From positions 1-50,026 of the IMG/VR virus record IMGVR_UViG_3300010413_000052: DNA of 50,026 nucleotides, one strand, 5' to 3'. Position 1 is the stretch's first letter, and every line of letters begins with the position of its first letter. The stretch is from a virus. Shown here in pieces: positions 1 to 50,026 of this stretch. The position numbers and the translations under genes are program-made. The notes under the pieces are model-generated. The model had not been told where the DNA came from. It saw nothing but the letters and a program-made list of their open reading frames with translations, and ran no database searches.

Positions 1-15
1 CGGCGCGAACAACCT
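1..15. repeat. Left copy of 15-base terminal direct repeat (cos candidate)
   Basis: The first 15 bases, CGGCGCGAACAACCT, are identical to the last 15 bases of the window. Together with the preceding bases at the right end they form a G/C-rich island in otherwise A/T-rich DNA. The small terminase gene lies just inside the right end and reads away from it, as nu1 does next to cos in lambda. The repeat may be a filled-in cohesive end or an assembler overlap. The sequence shows circular closure but not which of the two is right. Confidence 0.75.
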
Positions 16-7254: not shown

Positions 7255-9705
7255 ATGCATTTTTGTATATTCGCGCACACAGAAGATAACCAGCCAAAAC
7301 CTCAAGAAAAACCATGGAAATGGCTGGCTATGAGCCTGACAAAACACCGTGAAACATCGGTAGATAAGAATGCACCGGGACGGGTAGAGATCCCACTTCT
7401 GTCTTTTGTCACTTACAAGCCTGGTACGCTGCGAGCAAAATACAATGTACAGACTGTAAACGCAGCAGCGTTGGACATAGATTATATAACATCTGAAGAA
7501 TGGAATTCTATACAACGAATTTTAGAACAGAACGAGATATCCTCTTTTTGGTACACCACTTTTAGTCATCAACTACACGATCGACCAGACAATTTCAAGC
7601 TACGTCTATGCCTAGAACTGTCCAGGCCAGTTACAGGTCAAGAATGGGCTCAAATTTTTCCATTTTTTAAAGAGCATTTTCAAGCGGATTCAAATGCAAG
7701 TGATGCAAGTCGAATGTTTTTCGGTCCCTTTATACCGTCGGGTACACAGCACTTGCACTTTTCTGGTATTCAAGAAGGTTCACCTTTTGACGTAGACAAT
7801 TTACTTAAAGTGCAAAAACGTCCACCTACAGTGGTCGATCTACCACCAGAACCATCCATAACTGTCACAAAAGAAATGCTTACCAAACTGTCAGCAGATT
7901 TAAAACGCCGGTCTGACACGTACTCACAGCTGGCAAGCAGTATGATAAGACACTTGCGTGATGGTGAAAAGTTTACAGAAGAAGGTCACAGGGATGAAGC
8001 TGTTTTTCGTTATATAATTTCTTCAATAGTAAAAAAATGGCCTAATTTGAATACTACTGAACTAACAGCACTTGCAACACCATCATTAGAATTAAATGGT
8101 GGTGTGACTCCTGATCAATTTACATATAAAGTTGAACGTGCTAAACAAGAACGGCAAAAATACTTAGAAGATAACTACTTAAAACAAAAACAAAAACATG
8201 AAAATTCAATTGCAAAAACCAACACAAATAGACAACTTGTGGGAATGGATGCATATTATATAAATGACACCTTACCAGTAATAACGGCAACGACTTTTGC
8301 AAATAAAGAACTTGATATCCCGATCGGACAAGCAAAAATAGTGCAACATCAATCTGATTTTTATTTTTGGTGTAATGGCACTTATCATGGTCCTGTACAG
8401 AAAACAGCTTTTATACAAGCTGCAATTAAATATTTATCACCTTTTGAGGAAATAGAAGTTGAACTTTTTGATAGTTTTGGAAACCTTAAAGAAATTAATT
8501 TAGAAAACTTTTTATCACAGCACAGTACTTTTGTAAAAGAAGTGGTTTTTGCGCTGGGAAGTAACCAAACCGCATTAACAAAAGATGCACTGGTACTGCC
8601 TTATTATCCGCCTTTGACACAACCGCTTGAATATTCTTGGAGGGTTGACCATTGGATCAAGTTCCTGTTTAGCGGCAAGTCTGAGCCATCTGAGAGAGGA
8701 TGGGAACGTGTTAAGTGGGCTTGGAAATGGTTATGTCATTACCAGGATCACAATGTTCTTTTGCCGGCCATACTCCTTGTAGGTGCTACTGGTGCCGGCA
8801 AGGGGTTATTTGCCGAGTGGTTATCACAAGCCTATGAAATACCTGCTAATGTAGTGTCACTCAATCTATTGTATAATAGTGGCACTGAAAATGATGTGTA
8901 TCCGGTTATGGTAGCAGATGAGGAATTCCCGGACTGCAGTTCAGCGCAACTTAGAGAAGGTATAACAGCACGCAACCATATTCTGAAGAAAAAGTACCAG
9001 AATATACGCAGAGTAACCGGGTACATACGGCACATTTTAATTCTAAATGACGCTGATCGAATTAAGACTTTTGATGTCGGCGTAGAAGCACAACGTGCTA
9101 CAGCTGAACGTTTTATGTACGTCAATGTAACAGAGAAGTGCCGCGAATATCTAGAGGCACTCGTAAAAGGGAATGAGCTGTTACAACCGGGCGAGCTGCA
9201 AAAGCATATTGCATGGTTAAGGGAACAAAACCTGTATAATAGACTTGATCCCGGCCGTTTTGGTGTAGCAGTACCAGAAGACAACCAAGCCTTTTATGAG
9301 ACGTTTTACCGACAGAAAAACAGATTTGCAGTGTTGAATGTAATCTGTGATTTTATATGTCGAGATAGCTATCCTATAGGCATGATCGAAAGATATGGTA
9401 AATGGCCTATTGAAGTGACAGAAACAGGTGAAGTAAAGATTCGATCTGCACCTTTTGCAGCATACTGTGAAGATAAACTTGAAAACCGATCTAAGGCGTC
9501 ATTGGGTCAAGTGGTAAAGTCCATATCAGAACCAGTAAGAACGGCAAAAGAACGGTATTGGCGCCTGCAGAAAACCCACATTTATAGGTGGGCAGAAATA
9601 GCGATGGAATATTCTGATGAAGAGATCAAGGATGGTTTAAATACCACGACCGAATCAAAAGTTGACTCGGCCGTGGTAATAGAAAAAGAGAAGTGGATTA
9701 ATTAG
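7255..9705 (+). CDS. Primase-helicase (PrimPol/VapE-like, DUF5906 ATPase)
   Basis: The N-terminal ~200 residues hold an archaeo-eukaryotic-primase-like part (ALDIDYIT, FWYTTFSHQ, RLCLELSRP). The C-terminal half is a superfamily-3-like helicase with Walker A GATGAGKG at about 510-517, an acidic VADEEF and a later ILNDADRI. It likely primes and unwinds the phage origin. The start at 7255 is chosen because it sits one base after the stop of a leader ORF with a strong ribosome site; GTG 7237 in the same frame would add six residues but also lacks a site. The 3' end contains a long hairpin. Confidence 0.88.
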   Translation: MHFCIFAHTEDNQPKPQEKPWKWLAMSLTKHRETSVDKNAPGRVEIPLLSFVTYKPGTLRAKYNVQTVNAAALDIDYITSEEWNSIQRILEQNEISSFWYTTFSHQLHDRPDNFKLRLCLELSRPVTGQEWAQIFPFFKEHFQADSNASDASRMFFGPFIPSGTQHLHFSGIQEGSPFDVDNLLKVQKRPPTVVDLPPEPSITVTKEMLTKLSADLKRRSDTYSQLASSMIRHLRDGEKFTEEGHRDEAVFRYIISSIVKKWPNLNTTELTALATPSLELNGGVTPDQFTYKVERAKQERQKYLEDNYLKQKQKHENSIAKTNTNRQLVGMDAYYINDTLPVITATTFANKELDIPIGQAKIVQHQSDFYFWCNGTYHGPVQKTAFIQAAIKYLSPFEEIEVELFDSFGNLKEINLENFLSQHSTFVKEVVFALGSNQTALTKDALVLPYYPPLTQPLEYSWRVDHWIKFLFSGKSEPSERGWERVKWAWKWLCHYQDHNVLLPAILLVGATGAGKGLFAEWLSQAYEIPANVVSLNLLYNSGTENDVYPVMVADEEFPDCSSAQLREGITARNHILKKKYQNIRRVTGYIRHILILNDADRIKTFDVGVEAQRATAERFMYVNVTEKCREYLEALVKGNELLQPGELQKHIAWLREQNLYNRLDPGRFGVAVPEDNQAFYETFYRQKNRFAVLNVICDFICRDSYPIGMIERYGKWPIEVTETGEVKIRSAPFAAYCEDKLENRSKASLGQVVKSISEPVRTAKERYWRLQKTHIYRWAEIAMEYSDEEIKDGLNTTTESKVDSAVVIEKEKWIN
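9643..9677 (-). terminator. Hairpin in primase 3' end, possible leftward terminator
   Basis: The arms 9643-9656 and 9664-9677 form a 14-bp stem with a 7-base loop. In rightward RNA two positions are A-C mismatches, but in leftward RNA both become G-U wobbles, so the stem is complete only on the minus strand. It lies 84 bases beyond the stop of the minus-strand gene 9761-10015 and could end that transcript. The T tract after it is poor. Confidence 0.35.
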
Positions 9706-9760
9706 TCATTAAGCCAACCAAGCAATTCATGTACTAGATTATTTATATTACGTCTTAACA

Positions 9761-10015
9761 CTACCAATTATTAATTGGTTTCTCGCGGATCTCGTAAGTG
9801 TCAAAAATTCGCCCGTTGCGCTGCATGTCTTGCACTGGCTCAGCTTCAATGTCCTGTGGACCTCTCACATACCCACAACCACATTGTGGCATTCCGTTAT
9901 GTGGACACAGTGTCTTGACGCGTCTCATTTGACTATGAGTCAGCGTAGCCGTAGGGGTAGTGACTCTCAATGTAATTGACGTTCCGTGAAAGTTGTTTCT
10001 TAGTTCGATTTTCAT
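9761..10015 (-). CDS. Small protein with CxCGCG metal-binding motif
   Basis: This 84-residue protein starts with a beta-rich segment (MKIELRNNFHGTSITLRV) and has CPHNGMPQCGCG in the middle, a likely zinc site. ATG 10015 has a good ribosome site (AAGGAGG) and its own promoter with an extended -10. It is the last of four minus-strand genes that interrupt the rightward early region. Function unknown; a regulator of host or phage functions is plausible. Confidence 0.65.
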   Translation of the reverse strand: MKIELRNNFHGTSITLRVTTPTATLTHSQMRRVKTLCPHNGMPQCGCGYVRGPQDIEAEPVQDMQRNGRIFDTYEIREKPINNW

Positions 10016-10038
10016 TTTTATTGCCTCCTTGTTCTTAA

Positions 10039-10066
10039 GTTATAGCAGTTTAAAACTACTTTGCAA
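10039..10066 (-). promoter_or_regulatory. Promoter with extended -10 for gene 9761-10015
   Basis: On the minus strand TTGCAA (10066-10061), a 16-base spacer ending in TGC, and TATAAC (10044-10039) make a convincing extended -10 promoter just upstream of an AAGGAGG ribosome site. The same TTGCAA layout precedes the other genes of this cassette. Confidence 0.6.
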
Positions 10067-10166
10067 CTTTTTAAAACAAAAAAGTGATTAAAACTTTTGT
10101 CTTAACCACTTTTTGTTCTTTTTGTAGGTTTTGTCTTATGTTTTACTGAAAAACCTCTTAACAGCA
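10061..10166. repeat. Copy 1 of ~106-bp intergenic direct repeat
   Basis: This segment is nearly identical to 10439-10546. The first 63 bases (10061-10123) match perfectly; the rest differs by a few substitutions and single-base indels. It contains the promoter -35 box, a terminator and the 3' end of the preceding unit (TTTACTGAAAAA and following bases). The pattern shows duplication of a whole promoter/terminator interval. Confidence 0.9.
10079..10114 (-). terminator. Rho-independent terminator (copy 1)
   Basis: The arms 10102-10114 and 10079-10091 pair over 13 positions, with one G-U wobble in leftward RNA, followed by a T-rich tail. In rightward RNA the same position is an A-C mismatch. 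It lies after the stop of gene 10158-10382 and before the promoter of gene 9761-10015. Confidence 0.65.
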
Positions 10167-10382
10167 CTCTCTTCTTGTATGTTTTTCACTTCCGTAACTA
10201 TTAGCATATTTGCAAATGATTCCCCACTTGTCATTAGCAATTTGATCCATCACCCATTTTTCTTCTATGACCAATTCATAGATTTCCTTAGATAATTTGA
10301 CATTATCTTCTATTTTATAAGCAACATGAAACAGCTCATGTAATAATTTGTTTAATTTTTGCCTTCTTTCAAGTGGTGTCAT
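10158..10382 (-). CDS. Small hypothetical protein of the minus-strand cassette
   Basis: The chosen start (MTPLERRQ) has a strong AAAGGAGAG ribosome site; an in-frame ATG at 10409 lies upstream of that site. The 74 residues are mostly helical and charged. The C-terminal SEKHTRRECC resembles RSEKHSRNA near the N-terminus of the protein at 10703-10915, and the DNA is similar there too, so the genes may share sequence by duplication. Function unknown. Confidence 0.6.
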   Translation of the reverse strand: MTPLERRQKLNKLLHELFHVAYKIEDNVKLSKEIYELVIEEKWVMDQIANDKWGIICKYANSYGSEKHTRRECC

Positions 10383-10416
10383 TGTCTTTCTCTCTCCTTT
10401 TGTGTCCATATTTATT

Positions 10417-10444
10417 ATTATTACATTTTAAAAACGTTTTGCAA
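10417..10444 (-). promoter_or_regulatory. Promoter for gene 10158-10382
   Basis: On the minus strand TTGCAA (10444-10439) is followed after 16 bases by AATAAT (10422-10417), with TGT before it as an extended -10. The start point falls just upstream of the AAAGGAG site. It belongs to the second copy of the intergenic repeat. Confidence 0.5.
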
Positions 10445-10546
10445 CTTTTTAAAACAAAAAAGTGATTAAAACTTTTGTCTTAACCACTTTTTGTTCTTTT
10501 TTGTAGGTTTTTGTCTTACACTTTACTGAAAAATCCCTTAACAGCG
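10439..10546. repeat. Copy 2 of ~106-bp intergenic direct repeat
   Basis: This is the partner of 10061-10166, offset by 378 bases. It ends inside the last codons of gene 10516-10710, so copy 1 carries a relic of that gene's 3' end downstream of gene 10158-10382. This suggests that the unit was copied from here. Confidence 0.9.
10457..10492 (-). terminator. Rho-independent terminator (copy 2)
   Basis: It is identical to the terminator at 10079-10114: a 13-position stem with a G-U wobble in leftward RNA and a T-rich tail. It follows the stop of gene 10516-10710. Confidence 0.65.
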
Positions 10547-10710
10547 TTTTCAAGTCCCTCTGCTGCCTGGACAAGCTGCATAACATCCGCTTGTTGAGTT
10601 GAGTCTGTGTCAAGCCATAGCCTTTTTAGGTTGCGCTGTACTTTTTTAAGGTCTTCACAGACCATAACTTCGCGTGATCGTCTTGGTTTTTGTACTTTTT
10701 CTTCACTCAT
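10516..10710 (-). CDS. Small charged hypothetical protein
   Basis: The start MSEEKVQK is preferred because AAGGAG lies 9 bases before it; longer in-frame starts at 10764 and 10827 run deep into the gene upstream. The start overlaps the end of gene 10703-10915 (ATGAGTGA), so translation is probably coupled. The 64 residues are helical, basic in the middle (PRRSRE). No family recognised. Confidence 0.6.
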   Translation of the reverse strand: MSEEKVQKPRRSREVMVCEDLKKVQRNLKRLWLDTDSTQQADVMQLVQAAEGLENAVKGFFSKV

Positions 10711-10915
10711 AGTTGAATTCTCCTTGTCTGTTGTCTTGGGTTTTGGTTGTATAGGTTTCGCCATCTTGTTCAGTCCCTTCTGGACAGCTACACTGCCCTT
10801 CATAAAGTTTTTCAATTTCAGTAACAATTAAATCATACAGTGCTTTTGCATTTCTAGAATGTTTTTCACTCCTGTAGTGTTTAATTGCCTCCAAAAGTTT
10901 TTGTTTTTTATCCAT
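10703..10915 (-). CDS. Small helical hypothetical protein
   Basis: This 70-residue protein begins with a basic helical part (MDKKQKLLEAIKHYRSEKHSRN) and ends with an acidic, Gln-rich tail. It is the first gene of the minus-strand cassette and reads away from a promoter region shared with the rightward gene at 11124. The CSC pair in the middle could bind metal. Function unknown. Confidence 0.6.
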   Translation of the reverse strand: MDKKQKLLEAIKHYRSEKHSRNAKALYDLIVTEIEKLYEGQCSCPEGTEQDGETYTTKTQDNRQGEFNYE

Positions 10916-10922
10916 GTCTTTT

Positions 10923-10973
10923 TTCTTAGCATGGGAAAAACATGTTGCAAGGGAAATTTTTATCTGCTAGGTT
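10923..10973. promoter_or_regulatory. Divergent promoters sharing one palindromic -35 box
   Basis: TTGCAA at 10945-10950 is its own reverse complement. Leftward it pairs with TAAGAA (10928-10923) after 16 bases; rightward with TAGGTT (10968-10973) after 17 bases. Both spacers end in TGC, an extended -10 feature. One -35 box serving two directions would make the two transcripts mutually exclusive or jointly controlled. Sequence evidence only. Confidence 0.4.
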
Positions 10974-11065
10974 TTAATATCGTGAAAAAAGAATATAGAA
11001 AGGTGGTGAAAAATGTGTTCCCTGGGCTAGAAAAGGAACTATGTTTTTAAATAATACTGCACAAT

Positions 11066-11103
11066 ATGATCGGGAGTTTAAATGTGTCGCAACTCCCGAT
11101 CAT
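11066..11103 (+). other. Stem-loop in leader of gene 11124-11315
   Basis: A perfect 13-bp stem (ATGATCGGGAGTT with AACTCCCGATCAT) and a 12-base loop end about 8 bases before the AAAGGAG ribosome site. There is no T run, so it is more likely an mRNA-stabilising or translation-control hairpin, or an operator, than a terminator. Confidence 0.55.
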
Positions 11104-11123
11104 TATTAAAAGGAGCAAAAATC

Positions 11124-11315
11124 ATGTCAAAAATATTAGATGAGGTTTGGGTAGCATATGGAAAAAGTAAATCAGAAAAACCAGATATTGAATTTGGTTA
11201 TTATGCACTTTCGACTACAAGATATGGTGCAAGATTAAAATTTGAAGAAAATTATTCTTTTGCAGTTATAACAGAAATAGTAAGGTACAAAAAAGATGAC
11301 AACCAATTGGCATAA
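11124..11315 (+). CDS. Small hypothetical protein
   Basis: This 63-residue protein starts at MSKILDEVW after a clear AAAGGAG site; the longer in-frame start at 11082 lies inside the leader stem-loop. It is mixed alpha/beta with no motif. Its end overlaps the dCMP deaminase start by 20 bases, so the two are likely translated together. Confidence 0.6.
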   Translation: MSKILDEVWVAYGKSKSEKPDIEFGYYALSTTRYGARLKFEENYSFAVITEIVRYKKDDNQLA

Positions 11316-11754
11316 ACGTTTTTTTGAGCTTGCTCTATATATTGCCGAGTGGTCGAAATATCCCGGTCGTCATGTAGGCGCAGTGATTGTTGATGATCAT
11401 CATACGGTTGTTTCTATGGGTTATAATGGATCACCACGGGGCTGTGATGACAGAGATCAGAGTAAATATGCGATCCCGGTGAAATACTTTTTTGCCGAAC
11501 ACGCAGAACGCAATGCAATCTATAACGCACAACGATCACTTAGGGGTTGTCAGATTTATACAACACTGTTCCCTTGCGCTGACTGTGCTAGGGGAATAAT
11601 TCAGTCAGGTATATGTGCAGTGTATACCAAACGGCCTGATATGACTGACAAAGATTTTGGCCCACATTTTAAAGCCGCATTAAAAATGTTTGACGAATGT
11701 GGTGTTAAGGTGTACTATTTAGATGATCGTGGATTTATCATAAATAAGGATTAA
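11296..11754 (+). CDS. dCMP deaminase
   Basis: The zinc-dependent cytidine/deoxycytidylate deaminase motifs are present: HAE at residues 69-71 (catalytic Glu) and PCADC at 93-97 (zinc ligands). The length (152) and the N-terminal pattern ending in SMGYNGSPRG match phage dCMP deaminases. The product dUMP feeds ThyX. It is transcribed with the small gene before it, with overlapping frames. Confidence 0.93.
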   Translation: MTTNWHKRFFELALYIAEWSKYPGRHVGAVIVDDHHTVVSMGYNGSPRGCDDRDQSKYAIPVKYFFAEHAERNAIYNAQRSLRGCQIYTTLFPCADCARGIIQSGICAVYTKRPDMTDKDFGPHFKAALKMFDECGVKVYYLDDRGFIINKD

Positions 11755-11758
11755 GATA

Positions 11759-12016
11759 ATGAAATATGATAAAAAACAGAAAGTCGCAATCTTCTCACTT
11801 CTTTCAATAGGTTACGTAGTTAATAATCGACATGGAGTTATATCTGTAGCGGCGTGTTTAAATACACTTGGTTTTGAAGTTGCCGACCTTGCCGAAATAT
11901 ACCATGATTCATCAATAACAGAGTATTTAGAAGAGAAAATAGATGAAATAGTAGATGATTTAGGTGATGAATCAGAAAAATTTTTAGTGGGTAGAACTGA
12001 TGGATCTCAAAATTAA
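11759..12016 (+). CDS. Hypothetical acidic protein
   Basis: This 85-residue protein has a helical N-terminus (KQKVAIFSLLSIGYVV) and a strongly acidic C-terminal half (YLEEKIDEIVDDLGDESE). It sits 4 bases after the deaminase stop and overlaps the next gene by 17 bases. No family recognised. Confidence 0.6.
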   Translation: MKYDKKQKVAIFSLLSIGYVVNNRHGVISVAACLNTLGFEVADLAEIYHDSSITEYLEEKIDEIVDDLGDESEKFLVGRTDGSQN

Positions 12017-12212
12017 TGAACCTTATTATAAAGGCAATGATCATTTTCTTATTATAAGAGAAGACAAGTATAGTTATTATATACTTGATAGTATAGCTTT
12101 AGAAATGTTAGAAGAATTTGATGAACTAGAACCCTTATTTGAAATAGAAAAAACCTTTGATAGTGAGTGGCATTTAAAACAATTTTTAACAGAACAAGGA
12201 GTGCAATTATGA
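12000..12212 (+). CDS. Hypothetical acidic protein
   Basis: These 70 residues are mostly acidic with aromatic positions (YYKGNDHF, YSYYILDS) and might fold as a small beta/alpha unit. It overlaps both neighbours; the stop shares bases with the next ATG (ATGA). Function unknown. Confidence 0.55.
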   Translation: MDLKINEPYYKGNDHFLIIREDKYSYYILDSIALEMLEEFDELEPLFEIEKTFDSEWHLKQFLTEQGVQL

Positions 12213-12514
12213 AAAAAACATTAACAAGAAATAAGAAATTATATTGGGGTTACCTGACCGGTATCCTGGGTTACCTGACCGGTATCCGGGGTGACCTGAC
12301 CGGTGTCCGGGGTGACCTGACCGGTGTCCGGGGTGACCTGACCAATGTCTGGGGTTACCTGACCGATATCCGGGGTGACCTGACCGGTGTTTGGGGTAAC
12401 CTGACCGGTGTCCGGGGTGATCTGACTGGTATCCAGGGTGACCTAGATGATTGTGAAATTACATATGAGGACCGGGAAAAAGGTATAGATATTAAAGACC
12501 TAATCCAAGAGTAA
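12209..12514 (+). CDS. Heptad-repeat (pentapeptide-like) protein
   Basis: After a basic start (MKKTLTRNKKLYW) the protein has ten consecutive 7-residue units of the type G(D/Y)LTG(V/I)(R/W), coded by 21-bp tandem repeats at 12248-12457, then an acidic tail (DDCEITYEDREKGIDIKDL). Such regular short repeats usually form a narrow beta-helix or stacked coil, as pentapeptide repeats do. The AAGGAG site decides the start at 12209. Similar proteins with the same DDCEI tail occur in phages as hypothetical. A DNA-mimic role like that of some pentapeptide proteins is speculation. Confidence 0.75.
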   Translation: MKKTLTRNKKLYWGYLTGILGYLTGIRGDLTGVRGDLTGVRGDLTNVWGYLTDIRGDLTGVWGNLTGVRGDLTGIQGDLDDCEITYEDREKGIDIKDLIQE

Positions 12515-17293: not shown

Positions 17294-18435
17294 CAAAACC
17301 AAGACTAAAAACCTCAGCAACACAGATTAACGAATTTCTTACTTGTAAACGCCGGTGGGTTGCATCCTATGTATTAGGCATTAAGCAACCACAAACAGAA
17401 GCTATGGCATTTGGTGAAACAGGCCATAAGTATCTTGAAAATTACATGAAATATGGTACACCACCAGACGCAGAAAAGCCCTGGCAATTTACAAAAGAAA
17501 GCAGAATTCGATATCCCGGTTTATCTGCTAAAAAAGCTATTAAACACATACCAAAACCAGGTACAGCAAGGGCAGAACACGGTTTTAGTTTTATAATAAA
17601 TGGTATTGAATTCATAGGATATATCGATCTTGAGTATTTTGATGAACATAAAAACATATATTTGACTGATTATAAATTTGTATCTAGTTATCAAAGTGCT
17701 CTGGATTCAGACAGTCTACAAACAAACGTGCAAGCTACTATTTACGCCGCAAAAGCAATATTTGAATATAAAGTAGAAAATATAAATCTAAAGTGGATTT
17801 ATATACTCTCAACAAAAAACCCGTCTGCGAGAACTATTACATCTGGATTAACTAAAAAACAAACTAGTGATCAACTTAAGAAATTACTAGATATTTGTGA
17901 AGAAATGATTGAGTTGAGAGACAGTATAAAACAAGAAAAATACTCGGACATAGAAATTTTAAATGAAATACAACCGACCATAGAATCATGTTCACGGTAT
18001 GGCGGTTGTTATTATATTAACATGTGTAACCTTACACCCGAACAATTAATGCAAGGAGATTTTAAAGAAATGGATAATGATTTATCAAGTAAATTAAAAG
18101 GACTAGGATTAGATCAATATATAAAAAAAGATACGTCCAAAAAAGATGACCCACCTGAAGTAAAAGGACCGCCACCTTCAAACGGTGGAACTAAAACAAC
18201 TGCTAAAGGGACTATGGATCTGTCTCAATTCATGAAACAGCCAACAGTACACACTGAACAAAAACCTGAAGAAAGGGCACCTGTAGAAGTTGTGCAAACC
18301 ACTATAGTACCGCCGGCGAAACTAAATGCACCAGAACACTACACACAAGAAGTTAAAGAAGTAGTTGCAGACTTATCAGATGAAGATAAGTCAGCTTTTT
18401 TACGGGTTGTAAAGGCCGTTTTAGATCGTATCTAA
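17290..18435 (+). CDS. RecB/Cas4-like PD-(D/E)XK nuclease
   Basis: The N-terminus SATQINEFLTCKRRW and AFGETGHKYLE are typical of the RecB/Cas4 family. The active site reads GYIDLEYFD followed by YLTDYKF (Asp...DxK). Cys near 235-250 (CSRYGGCYYINMC) together with Cys18 could hold an iron-sulfur cluster as in Cas4/AddB. The C-terminal ~110 residues are a low-complexity Pro/Lys linker and a short helical end. Probably a 5'-3' exonuclease for recombination or end processing with the helicase next door. Confidence 0.82.
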   Translation: MTKPRLKTSATQINEFLTCKRRWVASYVLGIKQPQTEAMAFGETGHKYLENYMKYGTPPDAEKPWQFTKESRIRYPGLSAKKAIKHIPKPGTARAEHGFSFIINGIEFIGYIDLEYFDEHKNIYLTDYKFVSSYQSALDSDSLQTNVQATIYAAKAIFEYKVENINLKWIYILSTKNPSARTITSGLTKKQTSDQLKKLLDICEEMIELRDSIKQEKYSDIEILNEIQPTIESCSRYGGCYYINMCNLTPEQLMQGDFKEMDNDLSSKLKGLGLDQYIKKDTSKKDDPPEVKGPPPSNGGTKTTAKGTMDLSQFMKQPTVHTEQKPEERAPVEVVQTTIVPPAKLNAPEHYTQEVKEVVADLSDEDKSAFLRVVKAVLDRI

Positions 18436-48797: not shown

Positions 48798-49055
48798 CTA
48801 TTCTTCGTCTTCATCATTACTATCGTCTTCATTAAGTTTATTAAAATTAGCTATTCCATATTCTCTATTTACAAATTCACTACAAAACAAATCTTCTCTC
48901 ATTTCTTTTATTTCCGATTTACTTCCTGGATCTCCAAAACAACAATCCGCATAATAAAACTGTTTCTTATTTTTATCTTTTTCTTTAATTATATGTTTGC
49001 AATCAAGATCCCACCAATAACAATTACAACAACTTTCACCTATAGGACCGGGCAT
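48798..49055 (-). CDS. Small Cys-rich acidic protein
   Basis: The 85-residue protein begins MPGPIGESCCNCYWWDLDC, has further Cys (DCCFGD, LFCSEF) and an acidic tail (NEDDSNDEDEE). Several Cys likely bind zinc. It lies between small and large terminase genes, so a packaging helper role is possible. Confidence 0.55.
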   Translation of the reverse strand: MPGPIGESCCNCYWWDLDCKHIIKEKDKNKKQFYYADCCFGDPGSKSEIKEMREDLFCSEFVNREYGIANFNKLNEDDSNDEDEE

Positions 49056-49070
49056 TTTTATCCTCCGTTT

Positions 49071-50011: not shown

Positions 50012-50026
50012 CGGCGCGAACAACCT
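50012..50026. repeat. Right copy of 15-base terminal direct repeat (cos candidate)
   Basis: The last 15 bases equal the first 15. Read across the junction, the island is CCCGGCGCGAACAACCTGGG, with short dyad ends (CCC/GGG). A 15-base overlap is not a common assembler word length, which leans towards a biological cohesive end but does not prove it. Confidence 0.75.

Follow-up and report, generated by a model that had tools for sequence, protein, structure and literature searches.

Probable duplicated terminator-promoter joints and a probably swapped-in small gene in a phage operon

Results

A block of four small leftward genes (C-B-A-D) in a rightward phage operon probably contains duplicated terminator-promoter joints and a foreign small gene, A, that was swapped into one B-like copy. 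The block lies in the window, by which we mean the whole stretch of DNA that was analysed, an IMG/VR virus record of 50,026 bases and apparently a complete phage genome. A previous sequence-only reading had drawn attention to this region; its observation holds in essence, and its interpretation is partly supported.

The repeat, the 97% match of gene A to another virus, the B-like remnant behind A and the predicted asymmetry of the folds are all seen in the sequence itself (Table 1). In the history that we propose for them, the two repeats would be duplicated joints that separate leftward units of one or two genes (C-B, A and D) within the rightward operon, and at each joint transcription of the upstream gene would stop at the hairpin, the next transcript beginning from TTGCAA and an extended -10. 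A segment with the 3' end of a B-like gene and the joint would have been duplicated, and the body of one B-like copy would then have been replaced by a small gene drawn from another phage's gene pool, with the 5' break near the -10 and the 3' break just ahead of the remaining B-like codons. The newcomer A would thus combine the resident terminator and -35 with a -10, leader and coding body of its own, and its C-terminus would be new. We infer this order of duplication and replacement; alternatively, A may have been inserted first and the joint duplicated later.

The phage genome

An identical 15-base sequence stands at both ends of the window (1-15 and 50012-50026), and an independent 38-kb contig (G001) terminates at this end sequence. 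The window therefore probably represents a complete genome whose ends are real, either cohesive or fixed in some other way. Among the encoded proteins are the large terminase subunit, the major head protein, DNA polymerase, thymidylate synthase and dCMP deaminase, together with a baseplate wedge protein and a tail sheath, which point to a contractile tail. The best families (PHROGs) were phrog_15 for the terminase and phrog_17 for the polymerase, which we take not to be the families of T4. Scans against PHROGs showed no T4-type core in the 10 window proteins examined for it and no integrase in a total of 20.

The one close relative found was G001, the terminase of which is 88% identical to that of the window; this contig begins downstream of the leftward-gene region. 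Nucleotide searches of INPHARED with this region and, by megablast, with window positions 1-25000 gave no match. In IMG/VR, the primase-like protein gave eight pattern stretches and no relative, and the helicase-like protein gave five stretches with two relatives, namely G001 again and one at 26%.

The leftward genes

The claim that four small minus-strand genes break the rightward operon was confirmed, as all four are open reading frames with start sites. Their rightward neighbours end at 9705 and start at 11082 or 11124. As read from the sequence, A, B and D each have a clear Shine-Dalgarno motif and C has a weak one.

Table 1. Features of the leftward-gene region and of the matching viral contig. 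Positions are those of the window unless a locus is named.
Feature	Position	Strand	Description
Gene C	10703..10915	-	70 aa; first of the C-B pair; weak Shine-Dalgarno
Gene B	10516..10710	-	64 aa; start overlaps stop of C (ATGAGTGA); last codons inside repeat
Gene A	10158..10382	-	74 aa; alternative ATG at 10409; foreign body, altered C-terminus
Gene D	9761..10015	-	84 aa; strong Shine-Dalgarno
Repeat copy 2	10418..10545	-	3' end of gene B, terminator hairpin, TTGCAA and spacer
Repeat copy 1	10040..10165	-	B-like 3' remnant, terminator hairpin, TTGCAA, extended -10
Hairpin 2	10457..10492	-	terminator-like; 16-bp stem, U-rich tail leftward
Hairpin 1	10079..10114	-	terminator-like; 16-bp stem, U-rich tail leftward
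Promoter P2, predicted	10417..10444	-	TTGCAA, 16 nt, AATAAT; TG one base before
Promoter P1, predicted	10039..10066	-	TTGCAA, 16 nt, TATAAC; TGC before hexamer
Third TTGCAA, doubtful divergent promoter pair	10945..10973	+	rightward TGC-TA at 17 nt (TAGGTT); leftward at 16 nt (TAAGAA, 10928-10923)
Gene A body match	10199..10393	-	195 bp, 97% DNA identity to L027:482-676
Gene A leader	10394..10430	-	resembles promoter cassette at L030 minus strand 17434
Remnant of second gene-B-like 3' end	10130..10198	-	other-frame reading VKNIQEESAVKRFFSKT-stop; partly read as the new C-terminus of A
Five repeated TTGCA-16-TG.TA sites (family D2)	L030 19571, 17434, 16771, 15318, 13973	-	before small ORFs

Genes B and D had no relatives in any search made, including IMG/VR, where B gave 22 pattern stretches and D gave six. 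Gene C resembles the Pfam family ALC (the family of T4 Alc) below the threshold (E 0.013; 15.6 bits with a cut-off of 25), and a tblastn search of phages gave no relative of it. The sole IMG/VR match of C (L028, one of five stretches) was discarded as a chance hit, with 46% over 28 amino acids and an unrelated-looking context. PADLOC and NCBIfam gave nothing reliable on A to D. AlphaFold yielded no usable fold: A came out as a single long helix with a mean pLDDT of 73.5 (two sequences), and C reached 60.5 (one sequence). A to D may be small accessory proteins of early infection.

Upstream of the block, at 11069-11130, we noted an inverted repeat whose 11-bp arms enclose a loop of 12 nt (z -4.7 as RNA). 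Immediately upstream of it is the leftward site that best fits sigma-70 within 8500-12500 (11 of 12 positions match; about 0.13 such sites expected per 4 kb), and this arrangement could be an operator-controlled leftward promoter of the C-B unit.

The duplicated repeat

The repeat (about 127 bp) occupies the gaps between B and A and between A and D, and only these two copies were found in the genome. Its earlier description as near-identical repeats of some 106 bp was roughly right, albeit the real repeat is slightly longer, reaches the coding end of gene B and is uneven. The copies are 89% identical over 126 bp and 92% identical over an 84-nt block, and they share a core of 64 nt with no difference at all. 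On the left of this core (the 3' end of gene B) 37 of 44 columns match, and on the right 15 of 27. By arithmetic from these column counts, 64 identical positions would arise at the left-flank rate with a chance of about 1.5 in 100,000, suggesting that the core is under constraint or has been homogenised. An exact 26-mer of the stem was found nowhere in IMG/VR, and a degenerate stem pattern gave no match in GTDB genomes. The stem was likewise missing from 32 of the 34 loci compared, the other two (L001 and L002) being cut from the window itself.

Of 32 terminator-like sites (13+12+7) listed for the window, these two have the longest stems. At two stem positions the leftward RNA has G.U pairs whereas the rightward RNA has A.C, and the predicted hairpin energy is -19.8 kcal/mol leftward versus -10.3 kcal/mol rightward. 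The stem, which had been said to be complete only in leftward RNA, is thus predicted to be stronger in that direction, but the rightward one is weakened rather than absent. A hairpin that is strong leftward and weak rightward should be less of an obstacle to rightward transcription. Being identical, the stems offer no covariation, and the hairpins are predicted terminators.

Each repeat also carries a promoter-like motif, P1 or P2, previously described as a TTGCAA extended -10 promoter. The motif with its TG is indeed present in both copies, but promoter-like matches as a class are at chance level in 8500-12500 (13 found, 12.4 expected), and both -10 hexamers (TATAAC in P1, AATAAT in P2) are imperfect. 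What favours P1 and P2 as individual sites is their position, a Shine-Dalgarno sequence downstream, and a spacing and TG that both copies retain despite their different spacers. Promoter activity of P1 and P2, and independent expression of the units behind them, are predictions from the DNA. For P2 we propose a hybrid origin, with a resident -35 and spacer and a foreign -10 and leader.

A third TTGCAA (10945-10950) had been assigned the role of a -35 shared by two directions. Properly spaced TG-C-TA elements are present on both of its sides (chance about 0.016-0.020 per side), but the -10 hexamers (TAAGAA and TAGGTT) match at just three of six positions, and TTGCAA is its own reverse complement, so that any copy would read as bidirectional. 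A shared -35 at this place is therefore doubtful rather than established.

Gene A and its relative in a 90-kb contig

When IMG/VR was scanned with a gene A pattern, four stretches were retrieved, one of which (L027) is a relative. It is part of a viral contig of 90,087 bases that is otherwise mostly unrelated to the window. The match at 97% DNA identity drops sharply at both ends, and little homology is seen at the breakpoints. An assembly error is conceivable but made less likely by the 3% divergence and the different flanks. Neither GTDB genomes (64 stretches, no relative) nor phages and plasmids searched by tblastn contained a further relative of A.

A comparison of the whole window with the 90-kb contig (five pieces; blastn, E 0.01) gave three matches, namely gene A, 209 bp at 75% and 152 bp at 69%, and nine further ORFs have protein matches at 26 to 50% identity. 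The two weaker blastn matches and the nine weak protein matches indicate that both phages draw partly on a common gene pool. A second small gene in common with the contig (48801-49070 versus L034 1427-1642; 72% identity as protein and 75% as DNA; blastn match 48853-49058) adjoins the packaging genes near 48.9 kb.

Four of the five coding differences between gene A and its homologue are synonymous (P 0.045), so gene A seems to have stayed useful. In the 90-kb contig the homologue is intact, and its stop overlaps the start of the next gene. The last dozen or so codons of gene A are not found in this homologue, the intact 3' end of which suggests that the transfer was into the window. The terminator unit of the window is absent from the contig.

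The new end of gene A overlaps a remnant of a B-like gene. The coding end of B before the terminator reads ENAVKGFFSKV-stop and the remnant behind A reads ESAVKRFFSKT-stop; the common AVKxFFSKx-stop belongs to the reading frame of B but lies outside that of A, and gene A stops inside the remnant. At the DNA level, 33 nt including the stop codon match the end of gene B with five mismatches, and the remnant leads into the identical core through two one-base gaps. On this evidence a gene end was part of what was duplicated, and A would have replaced a gene body. That the arrangement may grow by duplication, as had been suggested, is supported by this doubled B-like 3' end before the terminator in both copies. 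A 25-nt likeness of the end of A to gene C was set aside, since 46 of 2000 shuffles reach its score and it overlaps the B-like remnant.

The homologue of A sits behind site 19571 of the five repeated promoter-like sites in the contig (Table 1), some of which have a short inverted repeat between the hexamers. Over the 20 kb at the right end of the contig, the pattern TTGCA-16-TG.TA was matched six times, the sixth match being outside the repeat family. Terminator-like sites in the right part of the contig number six with 5.3 expected, so the cassettes are promoter-only as far as seen. Compared with the five sites, the gene A leader (from the -10 to the Shine-Dalgarno sequence) was the best of 6662 window tiles, with a score of 34 versus 29 for the next distinct place, and a best-of-five score of at least 31 was reached in 8 of 10,000 shuffles. 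Its score against site 19571 was lower (23; 14 of 1000 shuffles) and came mostly from the Shine-Dalgarno part. The resemblance of the leader to the cassette at 17434 is short, but supported by these statistics. The idea of a modular cassette for small genes is borne out to the extent that gene A lies between the repeat copies and its 97%-identical homologue lies behind repeated promoter-like sites of another phage.

Discussion

Several other explanations of the region were weighed against duplicated joints with a swapped-in gene. The gaps could be ordinary intergenic regions in which a gene end, a terminator and a promoter were locally duplicated, with A landing there by unrelated illegitimate recombination. 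We regard this as rather unlikely: the presence of only two copies, the scant homology at the breakpoints and the failure to find the stem in IMG/VR (exact 26-mer), in GTDB (degenerate pattern) or in 32 of the 34 loci would all fit, but the 5' join falls at the promoter, and in both phages A stands behind a TTGCA-16-TG promoter-like site, though the sites differ in sequence. It is improbable that A came into an ancestor along with the second joint and that the B-like remnant is a chance resemblance. The remnant is admittedly short, and the 25 nt preceding it also resemble part of gene C at a level reached by shuffling; its 33 nt with the stop nevertheless match the end of B and run on into the identical core, and the joint is missing from the 90-kb contig.

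The palindromic TTGCAA and an AT-rich core that is more identical than its flanks might point to binding or recombination sites (an origin, partition sites or integrase arms) in an AT-rich stretch, instead of promoters and terminators. This has a low probability in our judgement, as both repeats are placed precisely where one gene stops and the next begins, the hairpin is favoured in one RNA strand by its wobble pairs, and the scan of 20 proteins against PHROGs turned up no integrase. Leftward RNA from D could also serve as antisense to the primase-like gene, in line with the fact that no terminator-like site was listed between the two. However, that scan was crude and no other sign of antisense control was seen, making an antisense role very improbable.

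Duplicated joints with a swapped-in gene, which we thus prefer, have counterparts in known systems. In T4-type phages, the motifs known as PeSLs (Arbiol 2010; Comeau 2014, via PMC4503421, PMC3950731) combine a stem-loop terminator with an early promoter between genes and have dense copies in variable regions (PMC4503421). As in the cited passages on PeSLs, the predicted stem-loop and promoter of the window form one small intergenic unit that is repeated between small accessory genes. PeSLs are moreover linked there to gene shuffling, and the window has one probably swapped-in gene between two copies. Unlike the PeSLs described in those passages, the window has two copies only, with a strand-asymmetric stem, and its presumed exchange concerns one single gene between two dissimilar phages; the likeness is one of anatomy and not of sequence comparison. 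The window phage is also not T4-type by the proteins scanned (phrog_15, phrog_17) and, with only two copies, its unit is not a PeSL by membership, though it seems to work alike.

In the haloarchaeal virus HGTV-1, PeSL-like motifs are described before the majority of ORFs in one part of the genome (PMC3950731). Conserved and placed ahead of many small ORFs, they resemble the units of the window in that an inverted repeat accompanies a promoter-like box and the virus is not of the T4 type, but the promoter is archaeal and TATA-box-like, and the passage concerned mentions no swapped gene. The SAS/ESAS of cluster K mycobacteriophages are, as described in the passage cited, repeated regulatory elements with inverted repeats near the starts of small genes (PMC12699233). 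The window repeats would likewise be regulatory and lie near such starts; unlike the 17-nt SAS repeats at the start codon, they have a terminator-like hairpin upstream of a predicted promoter, and the SAS consensus gave no match in the window with up to two mismatches. Our searches of the open-licence literature turned up no such unit for which a gene swap between dissimilar phages could be traced.

A moron is a small foreign gene between its own promoter and terminator. Gene A is moron-like in that it lies between a predicted promoter and a predicted terminator and has a foreign relative at 97% DNA identity. No relative that would mark B, C or D as foreign turned up. Morons are further marked by their absence from close relatives; the only one found here, G001, starts downstream of the region.

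The findings suggest a recent swap of one gene from the pool of a mostly unrelated virus, and thereby a way in which viruses may trade single small genes that are still switched on. One-at-a-time gain and exchange of tiny phage genes has so far mostly been inferred within one family. Here the swapped gene, the fossil of the gene it apparently replaced, the doubled signal and an intact relative in a mostly unrelated contig can all be read, and promoter-joint swapping thereby becomes directly testable. The wobble-paired terminator suggests a simple, low-cost way to place reverse-strand genes in an operon.

A wider and more speculative reading, to which we give a fairly low probability, is that phages of unrelated lineages sharing a host use the TTGCA-16-TG architecture as a universal joint, and that single genes are exchanged by crossover inside the promoter. 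If so, an incoming gene would be switched on at once by the hybrid promoter, and the strand-asymmetric terminator would insulate it leftward with the rightward operon not fully blocked. Shuffling of the PeSL type would then extend to exchange between unrelated phages.

A minor observation concerns short tandem units elsewhere in these genomes. At 12167-12514 the window has a gene built of 15-nt pentapeptide-like units. The pentapeptide-like gene of G001 (L023 1-1300) is longer and present in two copies, and the 90-kb contig has two arrays of 15-nt units as well.
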